Shown here: positions 4,787-35,151 of the stretch, piece after piece | How positions within the stretch are numbered: position 1 is the stretch's first letter | Layout of the letters: each line of letters starts with the position of its first letter | From: a virus | Reading direction: 5' to 3' (one strand) | Length of the DNA: 39,900 nt | IMG/VR virus record: IMGVR_UViG_3300050821_023945 | Location: 1-39,900 of that record | Made by a program: the position numbers and the translations under genes | Notes under the pieces: generated by a model | The model's input: the letters and a program-made list of their open reading frames with translations, nothing else | What the model was told of the DNA's origin: nothing | Databases searched by the model: none

Positions 4787-4959
4787 GCTCCGACAGTCTG
4801 CCCATCGAGCGCCAGGTCTTGAATCTGGCATCCGCCATTCTCCTCGAGGGGGAGCAGCGCGGCTGGTCCAGTCTGCGTTGCTCGGAAGAGATCGCGAAGA
4901 GCGTGACGGAGAATTTCGAGTTGTTGCCGCACGCGGAGGTTGGGGACAGAAGTGAGTGA
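4783..4959 (+). CDS. 58-residue early protein
   Basis: A short frame starting at ATG 4783 inside an ATGA overlap with the previous stop and ending at TGA 4957-4959, inside the next gene's start region. The product begins MSSDSLPIERQVLNLASAIL and is acidic. Tight coupling on both sides supports it as a real gene. No family is recognised. Confidence 0.5.
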   Translation: MSSDSLPIERQVLNLASAILLEGEQRGWSSLRCSEEIAKSVTENFELLPHAEVGDRSE

Positions 4960-5929
4960 GATCCTTCAAGCGCTGAGATCGCGGCGGGATCGCGTGACCC
5001 GGGCCATCGAGATCCTCACTGATTGCGGGCCTGCTCGCTCGGCGCGCCGTCCTTATGTGCGCTTCAACGCCTGGTCGAGGCGCGACCTGGAACGGCTGCG
5101 AGCGCTCTGGCCCACGGCTTCGGCCGAAGCTATCGCCCAGCAGCTAGGCCGGAGGCGCACCGCGAAAGCGATCGCCTCAAGGGCGAAGGTTCTGCGCCTT
5201 CGCAAAGCGGAAGGTTATGGGCACCGGCCCTGGACGGAAGCCGAAATTGAAATCCTGCGCGCACGCTATCCGCACGAACCGACATCGACTCTGGCCCCTG
5301 ATCTCGGCCGAAGCGCTCTTAAGGTTTACGCGAAAGCCAACAAGATCGGCCTTCGCAAGACGCCCGAGTACCTGGCGACGCCCGCTTATAAGGACCAAAT
5401 TACCGGACTTGAGCTCGGGGCTGCCTGCCGATTCCACAAAGGCCTAGTTCCCTGGAATAAAGGCCGGAAGATGCCGGGCTGGGCTCCCGGCCGCATGCGT
5501 GCGACGCAGTTCAAGAAGGGCCAGCATCCGGTTGGCTGGAAGCCGATCGGCTCCACGCGGATCAACGCGGACGGATACCTCGATCGCAAGGTTGCCGACA
5601 CGGGCTATCCGCCGCATGACTGGAAGGGCGAGCACGTTCTGCTCTGGACCGAAGCGCACGGTCCGGTTCCGCGAGGCTACATCGTGGTCTTCAAGGACCG
5701 CGACAAGCGGCACGTCGCGCTCGGAAACCTGGAATGCATTTCGCTCACTGAGAACATGCGCCGCAACACGATTCACAACCGGTATCCGCCCGCGCTGCGC
5801 AATCTGATCATGCTGAATGCCGCGCTCAAGCGCCAGATCCGGAGAAGAGAGGAAAAGGACGATGCCACAGAAAACAACCATCGAGGATTTGCGCGGGCAC
5901 CTGTTCGAGCAGATCGAAGAGCTTCGTGA
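4952..5929 (+). CDS. HNH endonuclease with two SANT/Myb-like DNA-binding units
   Basis: Product of 325 residues from GTG 4952 (TTG 4940 is an alternative). Two successive units begin WSRRDLERLRALWP and WTEAEIEILRARYP, each with aromatic-spaced helices ending in a lysine/arginine-rich recognition helix, as in SANT/Myb-like domains. A linker rich in Lys and Trp follows (around FHKGLVPWNKGRK). The HNH core begins near residue 222 with HDWKGEHVLLWTEAHG and continues through VFKDRDKRHVALGNLECIS. Such HNH proteins are common in phages as homing or packaging nucleases; the role here is unknown. A GGAGG (4935-4939) precedes either start. Confidence 0.82.
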   Translation: MSEILQALRSRRDRVTRAIEILTDCGPARSARRPYVRFNAWSRRDLERLRALWPTASAEAIAQQLGRRRTAKAIASRAKVLRLRKAEGYGHRPWTEAEIEILRARYPHEPTSTLAPDLGRSALKVYAKANKIGLRKTPEYLATPAYKDQITGLELGAACRFHKGLVPWNKGRKMPGWAPGRMRATQFKKGQHPVGWKPIGSTRINADGYLDRKVADTGYPPHDWKGEHVLLWTEAHGPVPRGYIVVFKDRDKRHVALGNLECISLTENMRRNTIHNRYPPALRNLIMLNAALKRQIRRREEKDDATENNHRGFARAPVRADRRAS

Positions 5930-6110: not shown

Positions 6111-6154
6111 GTAGGCGCGACCCGGCGGGGCGACCCGGCGGGCCGCCCCGTACC
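6111..6154. repeat. palindromic repeat cluster
   Basis: One and a half overlapping copies (CGACCCGGCGGGGCGACCC then GGGCCGCCCC) between two early genes. Confidence 0.8.
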
Positions 6155-9770: not shown

Positions 9771-9995
9771 ATGGAATGTTGCAAAGAATGCGGCGGACGG
9801 ATGAAGGTGTCGCGGTCGATTCGCGGCAGCGTGACCGGCACTCGCCGCCGTCTGCGCGTCTGCGAAGCCTGCGGGACGATCCAGGCGTCTACGGAAGTTC
9901 CGGACCCCACGCTCCGGAATTTTCGCGTGGATCGCGCCGCCCAGGAGCGCGCCCGGCGCCAGCGCGAGCGCGAAAAGCAGTTGCAGCTACTCTAA
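9771..9995 (+). CDS. small zinc-ribbon protein
   Basis: A 74-residue protein beginning MECCKECGGRMK, with a second knuckle CEACG near residue 31, giving a C4 zinc ribbon. A basic coiled C terminus follows (RARRQREREKQLQ). This pattern resembles Com-type or late-regulator zinc proteins of phages, but sequence identity cannot be judged here. A palindromic repeat (9734-9766) lies directly before the ATG. Confidence 0.55.
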   Translation: MECCKECGGRMKVSRSIRGSVTGTRRRLRVCEACGTIQASTEVPDPTLRNFRVDRAAQERARRQREREKQLQLL

Positions 9996-10021
9996 AAAAT
10001 CGCGGCCAGACCTGACCGCGA
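9994..10021 (-). terminator. candidate - strand intrinsic terminator
   Basis: TCGCGG (10000-10005) pairs with CCGCGA (10016-10021), and the stem can extend inward with one wobble. On the - strand the stem is followed by six T (complement of 9994-9999). No gene on the - strand feeds it within the window, so it may limit antisense transcription or be fortuitous. Confidence 0.35.
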
Positions 10022-10160
10022 ACAGCCCCTACCCCTATTGACTTGCCATCTTGCGGGCCTCATTCTGCCACCTGGACACCGGTCCAGTCGGACACTCTGA
10101 AGGCCGGGGCTGATCCCCTCGGCCGAGGGCGGCGGTTGCCTAGGAACTGCCGTCGCCCAT
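9996..10160 (+). other. intergenic region before the lysis genes
   Basis: About 165 bases without a convincing frame. It holds a hairpin (10000-10021) preceded by six A, which reads as an intrinsic terminator on the - strand. It also holds TTGACT (10038-10043) with CATTCT 17 bases later, a weak candidate for a + strand late promoter. The endolysin frame is open from 10101 but contains no ATG, GTG or TTG start in this stretch. Confidence 0.4.
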
Positions 10161-10775
10161 CTGAACCAAGAGCAAATTGATTTCCTGAAAGCCGTCACGC
10201 CTCCCGCGCTCGATTGCGAACGCGAGACCGGCATTCCCGCCGCCATCACCATCGCCCAGGCCATCCTCGAAGCGGCCGGCCGGGGCGCGGACGGGCAATT
10301 CCACTGGGGCGGCTCGGTTCTCTATCGCACCGCCAAGAACCCCTTCGGCATCAAGGCCGGCAAGTGGAGCGCGCCTTACCTCTACGCCACCATCAACGAG
10401 CCCACCACCGAATTCGTGAAGGGAAACGGCCATGAACAGGTAGAGCACATCATGGCGCCCTTCGCCATGTTCGGCAACCTCGGCAAGGCCTTCGACTGCC
10501 ACGCGCACCTGTTCCTCGATCATCAGCTCTACGCGGCGGTCAAGGCGGCCGCGCTCGCGCGTCCGGTGAACCTTGAGGCGTTCGCGGCATCGCTTGGGCC
10601 GAAGACGGGTGCGGGCGATACAGAGCACTGCGGCTACTCGACCAATCCGAACTACGCCGAAGAGCTGATGGCGCTCGTGCGAGCCCACGATCTGGATAAG
10701 CCGGAGGCGCTGCTGGCGCTTTTAGGGCCGGGGCTCGGGGCTCCGGGTTCGGGGCCCGGGACGGCGAATGGGTGA
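10161..10775 (+). CDS. endolysin, glucosaminidase (FlgJ/GH73)-like
   Basis: A 204-residue peptidoglycan hydrolase. FLKAVTPPALDCERETG, followed by PAAITIAQAILEAAG (with the family Glu) and AKNPFGIKAGKW, is the typical core of GH73-type N-acetylglucosaminidases; a helical tail follows. It would cleave host cell wall at lysis. The whole domain is encoded, yet the frame (open from 10101) has no ATG, GTG or TTG before 10416, which lies well inside the domain. CTG 10161 is taken as the start; CTG 10110 is another option. The C terminus (GPGLGAPGSGPG) is made of GGGGCTC heptads. The stop overlaps the next small gene (GTGA). Confidence 0.72.
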   Translation: MNQEQIDFLKAVTPPALDCERETGIPAAITIAQAILEAAGRGADGQFHWGGSVLYRTAKNPFGIKAGKWSAPYLYATINEPTTEFVKGNGHEQVEHIMAPFAMFGNLGKAFDCHAHLFLDHQLYAAVKAAALARPVNLEAFAASLGPKTGAGDTEHCGYSTNPNYAEELMALVRAHDLDKPEALLALLGPGLGAPGSGPGTANG

Positions 10776-10858
10776 TTTCGCCTTTCGGTTTCGGTTTTCT
10801 CGTTGGGCTGGCGGTCGGAATCGTGGTCGGGATCTGGTTGCGGAAGGACGAGCATTGA
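10772..10858 (+). CDS. 28-residue single-span membrane peptide
   Basis: GTG 10772 overlaps the endolysin stop (GTGA). The product is almost entirely one hydrophobic span (FGFLVGLAVGIVVGIWL) followed by RKDEH, giving one membrane segment with a charged end. Position and coupling suggest a lysis accessory (holin-like or spanin-like), but it is too short to assign. Confidence 0.45.
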   Translation: MISPFGFGFLVGLAVGIVVGIWLRKDEH

Positions 10859-10860
10859 AC

Positions 10861-11157
10861 TCAGAAATCAGAAGTCAGAAACAAACCGGACGTATCCGTT
10901 GGACGACTGGCGGACCCCAGGCGGCATCCCCGGCTGGAGAAAAAGTCGATCTAGGAGCGCGGCACGCAACCCGCAAGGGATAGCGACCGAAGCGGTGCAA
11001 AGGCAGAAGGTCCGCACCCTAGGGGTAATTCCCGATGGGCGGCTGAATATCCGAGGTTAACTTGAGCCGTGCGGACGAACCGAGGATTTGAGGCCGGCAG
11101 GAAAGCTGATGCCTGCGAGCGTTGCCGGGTCAACGCTTTCTGACTTCTGATTTCTGA
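10861..11157. repeat. 21-bp perfect inverted repeat of TCAGAAR heptads
   Basis: Left arm 10861-10881, right arm 11137-11157. Three heptads each, closing 255 bases of the candidate RNA. Confidence 0.9.
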
Positions 11158-11439
11158 CTTCTGGTTTTTTAGGCTGCCACCCACACGAAGGGGCAGAGGT
11201 TGATTTACAGGCAGACAAACGCGGCGTGCAGGGCTCTGAGTGGACGGAGAGAGCCCCTTGTCCCGAGCCGGCGGCGAGTCCGAGGCGGTCACCGTGGCGC
11301 TTTCACAGGCTGCGGCTCTGCCGAAAGACGGGAGAAAAGCTTAAGGTCCACCGTTGCCTGTCCAGGGAATCGATCAATGGCTGATATTCCGCTTGGGATG
11401 AGTTCCCCGGCGGCGGCTAGTGAAGCCCATAAGGAGTAC

Positions 11440-11468
11440 CCAGGGGCGACCGGTAGCCCCTGGTTTTT
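11440..11468 (+). terminator. intrinsic terminator
   Basis: An 8-bp perfect stem CCAGGGGC (11440-11447) and GCCCCTGG (11456-11463), loop GACCGGTA, followed by TTTTT. It stands 28 bases before the holin start. Its sequence resembles a shortened copy of the window's palindromic repeat, so a repeat may have become the terminator. Confidence 0.8.
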
Positions 11469-11495: not shown

Positions 11496-11984
11496 ATGGA
11501 TTTGAAATCGATTCTCGGAAAAATAGCAACAACCGGCGCCAAGGCCGGGGTTTCGGCCGCCGAGAATTTGCCGGGCGCGGGGCCGCTTGTGCAGGCGTTC
11601 GCTCCGCAAGTCATTAAAGCCCTCGGCGACAAGATCGATCCGGCCGCGAAGCCTGCGCTCGACGCGGCGGCGGCGGCGGTTGGCGACGATTTGCAGAAGG
11701 CGGAGCTCGACCACAACACGCAGATCGCGCAGATCACGAGCGCGAATCTCACCGCCGATTCTTCCTCGAATGATTCTTTCGTGCGCCGCGCGCGTCCGGC
11801 GTTTCTGTGGGTGATCACGATCGGCGTGGCGTTTTCGGTGGTGGTCTTTCCGGTGATCAACGCCTTGATGGGCAAAGGCCTGGTGATGCCGGAGATCCCG
11901 AGCGCGTACCTGGACCTCTTCGGCGTGGCCTTCCTCGGCTACACGGGCGCGCGGTCGATCGAGAAGATGGGGAACAAGGCGTGA
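11496..11984 (+). CDS. holin, 3-TM (DUF3154) family
   Basis: A 162-residue membrane protein. The N-terminal 95 residues are soluble and Ala-rich. Then SFVRRARPAFLWVITIGVAFSVV starts a first strong span (about 100-124), and YLDLFGVAFLGYTGARSIEK forms a second (about 137-155). The RRARP entry and GYTGARSIEK exit are hallmarks of the 3-TM holin family found in phages and gene-transfer agents. It permits endolysin release. The start lies just past the terminator and a CTCTGTG repeat stub. The stop overlaps the next GTG (GTGA). Confidence 0.85.
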   Translation: MDLKSILGKIATTGAKAGVSAAENLPGAGPLVQAFAPQVIKALGDKIDPAAKPALDAAAAAVGDDLQKAELDHNTQIAQITSANLTADSSSNDSFVRRARPAFLWVITIGVAFSVVVFPVINALMGKGLVMPEIPSAYLDLFGVAFLGYTGARSIEKMGNKA

Positions 11985-17421: not shown

Positions 17422-17997
17422 ATGCTTCGTTTCACGCTCACAGTTCGCGGCACGGAAAAGATCGACTTCGCGATCTCGGGCCTCGTCGCCCAGATCCGCG
17501 ACTGGCGCGAGCTTTGGCCTCGGGTCACGGATCTGATCGAATCGCGCATCATGCGGCCTCAGTTCGAGTCGCGCGGCATCCGGGGCAGCGGGATCTGGGC
17601 GGGGTACAAGCGCACGTATTCGCGGGCCAAGGTCGAAGGCGAGCCCGCGAGCCTGCGCGCCGATGACCGGCTTTACGATTCGCTGATCGGCCACACGGGC
17701 GACACGGTGGAAGACTACCAGCCCTTGAGCATGCGCTTTGGCACCAGCGTCCCTTACGCGATTTATCACCAGATGGGCACGCGCAAGATGGCGCAACGGC
17801 CGATCTTCGATTTCCAGCCGGACGATAACCGCGCCATCGCTTCCATGATGACGGCTACCGCCAGGAATTACGCCCGGAGGCTAGGGTTCAAAATTCTCGG
17901 GCAGGCCGGGCGCGACGTTACAGGACCTGAAGCGCTGCAGGCCGGCGCCGCGGCGCTCGCGGGCGGGGCTGGCGCTTCGCTCGGTTCGTTTTTGTAG
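17422..17997 (+). CDS. virion morphogenesis protein, Mu gpG-like
   Basis: A 191-residue head/tail completion protein. The family core is clear: long N-terminal helix (IDFAISGLVAQIRDWRELWP), GIWAGYKRTYSRAK, RLYDSLIG, and FGTSVPYAIYHQMGTRKMAQR. Proteins of this family join or finish the tail-head interface. The gene lies between two palindrome clusters: 17334-17415 upstream, and one that supplies its TAG stop (17995-17997) and continues to about 18092. Confidence 0.82.
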   Translation: MLRFTLTVRGTEKIDFAISGLVAQIRDWRELWPRVTDLIESRIMRPQFESRGIRGSGIWAGYKRTYSRAKVEGEPASLRADDRLYDSLIGHTGDTVEDYQPLSMRFGTSVPYAIYHQMGTRKMAQRPIFDFQPDDNRAIASMMTATARNYARRLGFKILGQAGRDVTGPEALQAGAAALAGGAGASLGSFL

Positions 17998-18092
17998 GGG
18001 CGACCCGGCGGGTCGCCCGTACGGCAACGGCGGGTCGCCCGTACGGCAATCCGGCGGGTCGCCCGTACGGCAATCCGGCGGGTCGCCCGTAC
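17994..18092. repeat. palindrome with tandem half units
   Basis: A full palindrome containing the TAG stop of the gpG-like gene, then three CGGCGGGTCGCCCGTACG half units at 21-23 bp spacing. Confidence 0.88.
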
Positions 18093-18133
18093 GACTTTTG
18101 GAAGGAGCCCGCGAGGGCGAGAGGAGAGTAGGA

Positions 18134-32761: not shown

Positions 32762-34996
32762 ATGTCAGGGGCTGCGCTCAGAATAGGTTGGCTGGTGGTC
32801 TTATCACTTGCCACTTGCCACTTGTCACTGGCTCAATACGGCCATCGCGCCAACGGCTTCGCGTTCGTCAACGCTCCGAACGGCCTGGTGGCGGCTCCGG
32901 GGTCTTCGATTCATGTTCTGGTGGAAGAGGGCCAGTCGCTCACTTGCGGCCAGACGCCTTATGCCGCGATTTACAGCTTCTCGGGCGGGAGCTACCACTC
33001 GATCTCGCAGCCCGGGTTTGTGGCGGACTCGAACGGCAATTACGACTGGTACGCGCTGCCCACCTCGATCTATCGCGAGGAAGTGAATAACGGGTCAACC
33101 TGCTTCATCATCCCGAACATCACGCTGCCGCAGGGCGTGCTGGTGCTCTATTCCTCGAACTTCCCCGGCGCTTCCAGTAATGCCCAGGCGCTCGCGGCCT
33201 GCCAATCTACGAGCGGCGCTCCGGTGACCGTGATCATCCCGTCCACGGCGGCCGCTGACAACACGGTGGAAGCCTATCCGCAGTACTGCTCCGTGCAGGA
33301 CCTGCGCGGCAGCGTGGGACCGAACCAGTTCGGCACCGAGGGCACGGCTTACTCCGAAGGCACCATTTTCCGGTCGCGCTTCGCCACGGCGCCCAACAGC
33401 GTGCAGAATTACGGGTCGCTCGAGTGCTACCTCTCGGATGACGCCGGCGGCTACAACACGTCCGGCGGCCCGAAGACCACTTACATCTGCATGAACGCGA
33501 TTTCGCACTCCGTTTCGCAGGGCACGCACTACGGCGTCCAGTCGATCATGGGCGGCTTGGGCGAAGGCGATGAGCTCACCTTCTACGGGCAGGCGCAGTG
33601 CTACGGCGGGTCAAACGCCACCGGAGACGAAGGCTGCGAAGCGGGGCACTTCGAGGCCGATCAGGGGTCGCTGGTGTTCACGGGGACGGTGGCCACCTAT
33701 GCGAACATCGGGTCCACCAGCACGATCACGTACACCAGCCCGGTGAACGAAAGCGTACGCGGCGAGCTGCGCTGGATGGTGGACACCAACGCCTCGAAGA
33801 TTTACTCGACGGGTACCATCACCGGCATCAGCGGCGTGCCGCCCGTGGTGACGGGATCGGGTACCGGCTGGGCCACGCAGTTCGGCACGGGCGCGCGCAC
33901 GGGCGACCTGTGCTTTGCGCTTGCCAACGACACCAACACCGGCTACACGCCGAACGTGCTCAATGTGATCCCCGTCGCGTCGATCGGTAGCAACACCAGC
34001 CTGACCCTAAACCTGCAAGCGGTGGGCGTGAACAAGGGCTACAGCTCCATCAATCCGACCGGCAATTACCAGATCTTCGAGTGCAGCCAGGTGGCGCCCG
34101 GAGGCCTCGGCGGCGGCTCCGGTGACGTGGTGGTGACCAACGGCTACACGAGCTGGGCCGCGGCGGACACCTTCGCGATGTATCCGAACTATGACGCGCA
34201 ATTACGCGGGCTGATCGTGGACATCAACCCCACGCTGCCCATGGCCGTCTCGCCCGGCGGGATCTGGCTGATCAATGAAGCGGCCGCCCGGACCCAGGGC
34301 TACATCCCCGGCCTTTCGCTCTTCGGTCCGTGGACGGACGGCGTAGCCTGCGGCACGCTTTCGAACTCCTGCATCCAGGAGGATTCGACGGGCAACGCCT
34401 TCCTGATGTACCAGAGCACGGCCGACAGCTACCTGAGCTGGGGGTGGGACTCGAATGTTGACTTTGTGAAGTTCGGCTGCGACAAGACCACCGGCGCCTG
34501 CAGCGTTACGGATGGCACGAACGGGCAACTGCTCGAGGTGGACCAGAACAAAGTGACGCACGTCGCCGCCATCGTACAGGACAAGGCCACCCACGTCACG
34601 AGCGGCGAGATCGCGCTGGGCCTGGTGCAGGGCCCGTACGGGACCTCGTCCGGATGGGGCACGGGAGCCTCGGTCACGAGCGTGAAAAACGACAGCAACA
34701 GCCTGAACGGATTGACCGTGTTCACGGTGGGCACGTCGCCGGGTACTTATCCCATGGTCGAAGTGCCGTTTGAAGGGATCAGCCCGTCGTCGGTGACGTG
34801 CCAGGCGACGTTCATCGATCAGACGGGAATTGCGCCGGCCATCCCGTATTACGAGGAAGGCGGCACGGGGGCGGCCGGCAAGCCCTATATCGGATACATC
34901 TGGCCGGGCGGCGGCGTTCCGCCTTCCTGGACGGGGACCTCGCCCACGGCGGGCGAATCGCTGACGCTGACCTGGAGTTGCGCCTGGCTGCAGTAG
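32762..34996 (+). CDS. secreted-type tail fibre/receptor-binding candidate
   Basis: A 744-residue product from ATG 32762; ATG 32696 is also in frame but its extra residues translate a palindrome. The leader IGWLVVLSLATCHLSLAQY is encoded by ACTTGCC heptads (32803-32830). The mature part is Gly/Ser/Thr-rich, beta-structured and contains many Cys, with segments (SYLSWGWDSNVDFVKFG, TWSCAWLQ end) resembling fibre or spike proteins. The position after the tape measure suggests tail-tip attachment and host recognition. Its TAG stop (34994-34996) starts a tandem palindrome array. Confidence 0.6.
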   Translation: MSGAALRIGWLVVLSLATCHLSLAQYGHRANGFAFVNAPNGLVAAPGSSIHVLVEEGQSLTCGQTPYAAIYSFSGGSYHSISQPGFVADSNGNYDWYALPTSIYREEVNNGSTCFIIPNITLPQGVLVLYSSNFPGASSNAQALAACQSTSGAPVTVIIPSTAAADNTVEAYPQYCSVQDLRGSVGPNQFGTEGTAYSEGTIFRSRFATAPNSVQNYGSLECYLSDDAGGYNTSGGPKTTYICMNAISHSVSQGTHYGVQSIMGGLGEGDELTFYGQAQCYGGSNATGDEGCEAGHFEADQGSLVFTGTVATYANIGSTSTITYTSPVNESVRGELRWMVDTNASKIYSTGTITGISGVPPVVTGSGTGWATQFGTGARTGDLCFALANDTNTGYTPNVLNVIPVASIGSNTSLTLNLQAVGVNKGYSSINPTGNYQIFECSQVAPGGLGGGSGDVVVTNGYTSWAAADTFAMYPNYDAQLRGLIVDINPTLPMAVSPGGIWLINEAAARTQGYIPGLSLFGPWTDGVACGTLSNSCIQEDSTGNAFLMYQSTADSYLSWGWDSNVDFVKFGCDKTTGACSVTDGTNGQLLEVDQNKVTHVAAIVQDKATHVTSGEIALGLVQGPYGTSSGWGTGASVTSVKNDSNSLNGLTVFTVGTSPGTYPMVEVPFEGISPSSVTCQATFIDQTGIAPAIPYYEEGGTGAAGKPYIGYIWPGGGVPPSWTGTSPTAGESLTLTWSCAWLQ

Positions 34997-35004
34997 GGGC
35001 GACC

Positions 35005-35151
35005 CGGCGGGTCGCCCGTACGAATCGGCGGGTCGCCCGTACGAATCGGCGGGTCGCCCGTACGAATCGGCGGGTCGCCCGTACGAATCGGCGGGTCGCC
35101 CCTACGGATCGGCGGGTCGCCCGTACGAATCGGCGGGGTCGCCCTTACAAG
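35005..35151 (+). repeat. tandem 21-bp array derived from the palindrome (7 units)
   Basis: Seven head-to-tail units of 21 bp (CGGCGGGTCGCCCGTACG plus AAT), four identical and three with one to a few changes, directly behind a complete palindrome that contains the TAG stop of the preceding gene. No spacers, so not CRISPR. A decayed end continues to about 35164. The array fills the 177-base gap between two tail genes. Confidence 0.9.

Follow-up and report, generated by a model that had tools for sequence, protein, structure and literature searches.

A probable small accessory RNA beside acidobacterial simple repeats in the late genes of a Mu/B3-like phage

Between the lysis genes of a phage genome lie about 610 bases (10859-11468) that the first-pass annotation marked as a candidate large structured RNA. 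Is this stretch an RNA gene, and how much of it belongs to one? The window, that is the whole stretch of DNA analysed here, is a 39.9-kb virus record in IMG/VR (39,900 nucleotides). Our comparisons with related phages point to a probable new accessory phage RNA of small size, about one third of that proposed, lying beside acidobacterial repeats and a non-coding second half.

The window opens with genes for a Mu-type transposase (phrog_310) and for a transposition protein like Mu B (phrog_296); a Mu-type portal and a large terminase subunit of the Terminase_6 family are also encoded. Among bacterial genomes, this terminase is closest to those of Acidobacteriaceae MAGs at 55–57% identity, and it is 62–63% identical to its closest IMG/VR relatives. 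Hence, judged by its genes, the window belongs to the Mu/B3-like transposable phages; its nearest relatives are prophages of Acidobacteria, and its host is probably acidobacterial. Acidobacteria are a poorly studied soil phylum. The phage also encodes an HNH endonuclease at 4940-5929 (phrog_1891, E 3.5e-59), the N-terminal part of which matches the D5-like transcriptional regulator family phrog_323 too.

The flagged stretch is bounded on the left by an endolysin gene (10140-10775, plus strand; phrog_18032, E 2e-17, glucosaminidase fold) and a putative 28-aa membrane peptide with a GTG start (10772-10858, plus strand), read as an open frame. On the right is a GTA-type holin gene, GTA_holin_3TM (11496-11984, plus strand; Pfam PF11351, E 1.1e-12; phrog_3427, E 4e-22). 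The main genes are on the plus strand, and a terminator-like hairpin with T6 is seen on the minus strand at 10000-10021, in the gap that separates the endolysin from the gene at 9771-9995.

Coding potential, folding and repeats of the stretch

With a codon-usage profile trained on genes of the same phage, all six frames score below 0 in 150-nt windows taken between 10800 and 11499, whereas the genes on either side reach +0.2 to +0.5. The open frames of the stretch match nothing in Pfam and PHROGs except for two hits at E 0.15 and 0.2. Thus, the absence of any plausible frame in 10859-11468, as first noticed, is borne out by the profile.

The stretch does end in the kind of textbook intrinsic terminator that had been described. 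It is a well-formed plus-strand hairpin with T5 at 11440-11468 (CCAGGGGC-GACCGGTA-GCCCCTGG-TTTTTC), placed 27 bases upstream of the holin start. No other plus-strand site in the window combines an 8-pair stem made entirely of GC and AU pairs with a T run directly behind it. A search for sigma-70-like promoters in the region of the stretch found none.

Folding energy tells less than it first seemed. The full stretch folds with z of -2.7 to -3.8, and the second half with z of 0.0. The first half falls from -4.3 with the arms of an inverted repeat to +0.3 without them, so the excess stability is due to the inverted repeat alone. With z near zero in either half once the arms are removed, the idea of one unusually stable, ornate RNA of about 610 nt is not sustained. 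The z score is a blunt test here, as four real Acidobacteriota RNase P RNAs reach just -0.5 to -1.5 on the listed strand, and therefore folding energy alone cannot decide.

The inverted repeat is real. The 21-bp perfect repeat reported earlier lies inside a 25-nt repeat of 96% identity with its left arm at 10857-10881 and its right arm at 11137-11161, both given on the plus strand. The left arm consists of TCAGAAR heptamers, namely TCAGAAA and TCAGAAG, and the right arm of the same heptamers in opposite orientation. Of 149 sampled Acidobacteriota genomes, 8 have such arrays, scattered and in either orientation. One acidobacterial prophage (L031) is full of related heptamers, and in a close relative (L153) several spacers are inverted pairs of other simple repeats.

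Simple repeats occur elsewhere in this phage group as well. They enter coding sequence too, because the terminase frame of an acidobacterial prophage (L031, 2094-3743) holds SKIETRNSPEFRSSNFEFRP insertions. In the window, the transposase reading frame itself contains simple repeats (AGTTCGAAGTGCGGAGTTCGGAGTT) arranged as an inverted pair at 583-672. Copies of a REP-like palindrome, GTAGGGGCGACCCGGCGGGTCGCCCGTACG, lie at 6127, 9740, 12668, 16524, 17388, 17997-18100, 28578, 32723 and 34996-35113, for the most part in gene gaps. Half of this palindrome forms a tandem array near 35008-35113, and the gene at 17422-17997 lies between the arms of a 38-nt inverted pair of it.

Taken by itself, the evidence on which an RNA was first proposed does not carry that proposal. 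The repeat is an acidobacterial simple repeat, the remaining energy is average, and half of the stretch is without a relative.

A conserved core in a second phage

The case for an RNA comes instead from a homologue. When the repeat-free block was compared by BLAST with 50 whole records of related phages, one of the 50 matched at E 6.6e-5. This record, of a soil phage, is IMGVR_UViG_3300025310_000222 with the match at contig positions 30532-30608, and it overturned our reading of the whole stretch as ordinary spacer. By local alignment, 225 nt of the window (10882-11106, plus strand), hereafter the core, correspond to 198 nt of the other phage (locus L249, about 1032-1232; contig about 30531-30731) with a score of 63 and z = 16. 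Shuffles score 19.9 on average with an sd of 2.7 and a maximum of 34, none of 3000 reaches 63, and the Gumbel extrapolation gives p ~6e-10.

The homologue occupies a 280-nt intergenic gap (L249, 1015-1294) between two tail-region genes, one with a major-tail-protein match (phrog_9522, E 1.5e-9) and the other without a PHROG match. Hence, the association with the lysis region that had been supposed is not supported, as the second copy sits among tail genes. The codon profile is negative over this gap as well. The core is non-coding in both phages.

Three long blocks are identical in the two phages and keep their order: GUUGGACGACU (11 bases), AAAGUCGAUCUAGGA (15) and GGCAGAAGGUC (11). They co-occur in no other of 236 loci amounting to 2.06 Mb. 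The stretches between them vary in length and sequence, and the block spacing changes by 1 and 17 nt, so any reading frame is broken. The two phages share only four proteins at E below 1e-3 among the 47 candidate window frames tested, which are the transposase (26% identity), the endolysin (31%), a small protein (30%) and the terminase (61%). In the homologue's phage, a further non-coding block follows a lysis gene (L158, 3485-3790) and has a GC-rich hairpin at its end; no similarity was found between it and the second half of our stretch.

Along the plus strand of the core, the features identical in the homologue are block A (GUUGGACGACU, 10898-10908), block B (AAAAGUCGAUCUAGGA, 10941-10956), block C (GGCAGAAGGUC, 11002-11012) and, by the alignment, blocks D (ACUUGAG, 11060-11066) and E (GAACCG, 11077-11082). 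UUGGACGACU of block A is complementary to AGUCG-a-UCUAG of block B, giving ten pairs and a single bulged A. This duplex has an energy of -9.6 kcal/mol, which is equalled by 141 of 20000 shuffles (p ~0.007). Its ten pairs are invariant between the two known copies, and the helix cannot covary because no base changes in it.

Between A and B, a hairpin at 10918-10937 (plus strand) folds in both copies. It reads CCAG-g-CGG..CCG-g-CUGG here and CUCCCUC..GAGGGAG in the homologue, so its place is kept and its sequence is not. Each copy probably also has a GNRA hairpin after block B, read from the sequence as CCC-GCAA-GGG here and CCGG-GAAA-CCGG there. A weaker possibility is hairpin H1 at 10895-10914 (plus strand), UCCG-UUGGACGACUGG-CGGA here and CCGG...CCGG in the homologue. 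Two of its four pairs are changed on both sides between the copies, and 128 of 500 shuffles do equally well, which with two sequences falls short of significance. As block A would lie in the loop of H1, the A/B pairing would then be a pseudoknot, a possible alternative fold.

In our phage the heptamer arms could form a closing helix, a role that the shorter stems CGGGGU/ACCCCG and AGCUG/CAGCU may have in the homologue. The minimum-energy folds of the two copies differ outside the A/B region, and shuffles fold as well as the window core by itself (z 0.1 to 0.3). The proposed look for covariation in homologous phages brought one homologue, and the covariation itself is weak, with two H1 pairs changed and ten A/B pairs invariant. 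As to the new structured RNA, the proposal survives for about 225 nt (10882-11106) through the homologue with its identical blocks, and falls for the full 610 nt.

Distribution of the core

How widely does the core occur? Across 94 sources, a covariance model built from 10888-11022 matches both copies by construction, at 160 and 128 bits, and scores no further match above 14 bits. Models R1 and R2 recover just the two known copies from the relatives' loci, a covariance model of the core meets no third member in 164 sources that cover window and relatives, and R1 finds no further member in the remaining parts of 20 relative phage records. In 399 genomes of one acidobacterial class, R1 yields 28 matches with E of 0.1 or less, fewer than the roughly 40 that chance would give; the best of them, at 26 bits, lack the blocks and were rejected, so no third copy was found there.

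Other searches agree. No core homologue was found in GenBank phages and plasmids. DNA patterns from other core parts and the second half gave no true match in IMG/VR and the genome collection, the lone hit (L004) being dismissed as coding sequence. BLAST of the core and the second half against 396 Acidobacteriota genomes returned chance-level matches, mostly coding, in a search that scored two candidates per genome and could miss weak homologues. The second-half matches were in excess at query positions of about 90-128, a GC-rich stretch, and are attributed to composition. The core element has two known members.

The relatives reveal where the core is absent. At the tail site, the genes nearly abut in four of them (L273, L276, L279 and L281, with a few to about 25 nt between the genes), and an unrelated small open frame takes the place in two (L270 and L271). 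A different non-coding stretch of about 110 nt is found there in another (L280), and the gap as a whole, L249 1015-1294 and its counterparts in these seven loci, is an insertion hot spot. At the lysis site, two relatives with a homologous holin (L199 and L202) have a 66-aa frame between endolysin and holin and no core, and the close relative L153 has a simple spacer of about 120 nt and no core.

Thus, the core behaves like an accessory RNA gene whose insertion site varies. Because a 225-nt element is shared at different sites by phages with few matching proteins, the pattern resembles that of an independent, moron-like cassette.

Interpretation and comparison with known systems

Our preferred reading is that the core at 10882-11106 is a gene for a trans-acting small accessory RNA of acidobacterial Mu/B3-like phages, and we give it a probability of about 0.5. 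That phages of Acidobacteria carry a small add-on RNA gene is in itself probable. A more specific version, that of a new class of about 225 nt acting as a protein-free moron which moves between sites and works in trans against or through an acidobacterial host component, is tentative and has the odds somewhat against it.

In such a scheme, the core would be a protein-free cassette in variable sites between late genes and be cotranscribed with these genes. The RNA would fold around the A/B helix with the variable hairpin inserted. It would act in trans in late infection as a binding partner of a protein or RNA from phage or host; trans action is preferred to control of the next gene because the neighbours of the two copies differ. 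A decoy or anti-host role would fit an accessory gene and is a guess. In the present phage, the terminator at 11468 probably sets the 3' end of the transcript, which the heptamer arms might close by pairing into a terminal helix. At the homologue, no terminator is visible by eye, and so its ends may come from processing or closing helices.

Of the other explanations, the one that survives best, unlikely as we consider it, takes the core for a conserved DNA element, such as a site for protein binding, recombination or insertion, or what is left of a small non-autonomous mobile element. Blocks A and B contain the inverted repeat CGACT/AGTCG, which a protein might bind as DNA, the copies are at variable insertion sites and the phage is rich in intergenic repeats. 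However, the five or more separate blocks spread across 200 nt, together with a hairpin between A and B conserved in place and variable in sequence, fit an RNA better. Moreover, the two copies have no terminal repeat in common by eye, with heptamers here and none in the homologue.

Slightly less credible is a cis-acting leader of the holin, an attenuator that times lysis and is made up of the structured RNA plus the terminator, 27 bases upstream of the holin start. A well-formed terminator does stand directly upstream of the holin, and the second half, as read from its sequence, offers a partial complement to the terminator stem. The conserved part is nevertheless the first half and not the one adjoining the terminator, the homologue precedes a tail gene and the holin-carrying relatives L199 and L202 are without such a leader.

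Equally improbable is a non-functional spacer made of a decayed gene, acidobacterial simple repeats and a terminator: it accords with the average energy once the repeat is removed, the heptamers being common acidobacterial spacer repeats, the long non-coding zones in relatives and the second half without homologue, but identical blocks of 11, 15 and 11 bases in a phage with only four matching proteins are unexpected under neutrality. The alignment thus largely refutes it for the core, and it is the default for 11171-11439. This second half (plus strand) is non-coding and may represent either a second domain or simply spacer; over 11171-11468 it has no similarity to the homologue's phage and no match elsewhere in our searches.

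If the small accessory RNA is true, it would count as an RNA moron, carried by some members of the group, missing from others and located at different late-gene sites. To our knowledge, phage accessory genes have been catalogued almost exclusively as proteins. The conserved blocks provide a ready search key, GGACGACT-N(15-50)-AGTCGATCTAG, which along with the covariance models makes the breadth of the class immediately testable.

No family reaches its gathering score in an Rfam covariance search of the window, and relaxing the threshold to an E of 10 brings up just two human lncRNA models, far below the cut-off. The known families suggested at first (GOLLD, ROOL, introns and HEARO) accordingly match neither the stretch nor the core. 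Conserved blocks outside coding sequence in one homologue, at p ~6e-10, speak for a new family. Group I and group II introns are rejected with their Rfam models unmatched and both copies lying between genes, not within one.

GOLLD and ROOL are alike to the core in being structured non-coding RNAs of phages and prophages, with no function assigned and no protein partner in the locus (PMC12286853). They are unlike it in being longer and having Rfam models of their own (PMC12286853), whereas the core has about 225 nt and no Rfam match. Many GOLLD members exceed 800 nt and they are often near tRNA islands (PMC12286853), and no tRNA genes were found in the window. Hence, the initial comparison with them finds no support in size, position or Rfam: membership in GOLLD has the missing Rfam match, the lack of tRNA and the conserved part of about 225 nt against it, and membership in ROOL its unmatched covariance model.

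HEARO, the IscB omega RNA (RF02033), was considered for a resemblance and belongs to the same size class of about 200 nt. Unlike the core, its consensus has none of the blocks, and the whole record gives no covariance candidate for it at E up to 10, so the lead was rejected. HEARO is present in 5 of 199 Acidobacteriota genomes, and the similarity of the core to 17 acidobacterial HEARO loci is not beyond chance. The gene directly downstream is a holin here and a tail-region gene at the homologue, and no iscB was noticed.

The bacterial intergenic repeats, both REP-like palindromes (PMC3733652) and heptamers, account for the inverted repeat and occupy other spacers of the phage, but leave the conserved core unexplained. 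The phage morons and small RNAs, such as the anti-sRNAs of E. coli prophages (PMC4104026), are unrelated to the core in sequence. They are like it as accessory genes that lie between conserved phage genes, some of them being RNAs.
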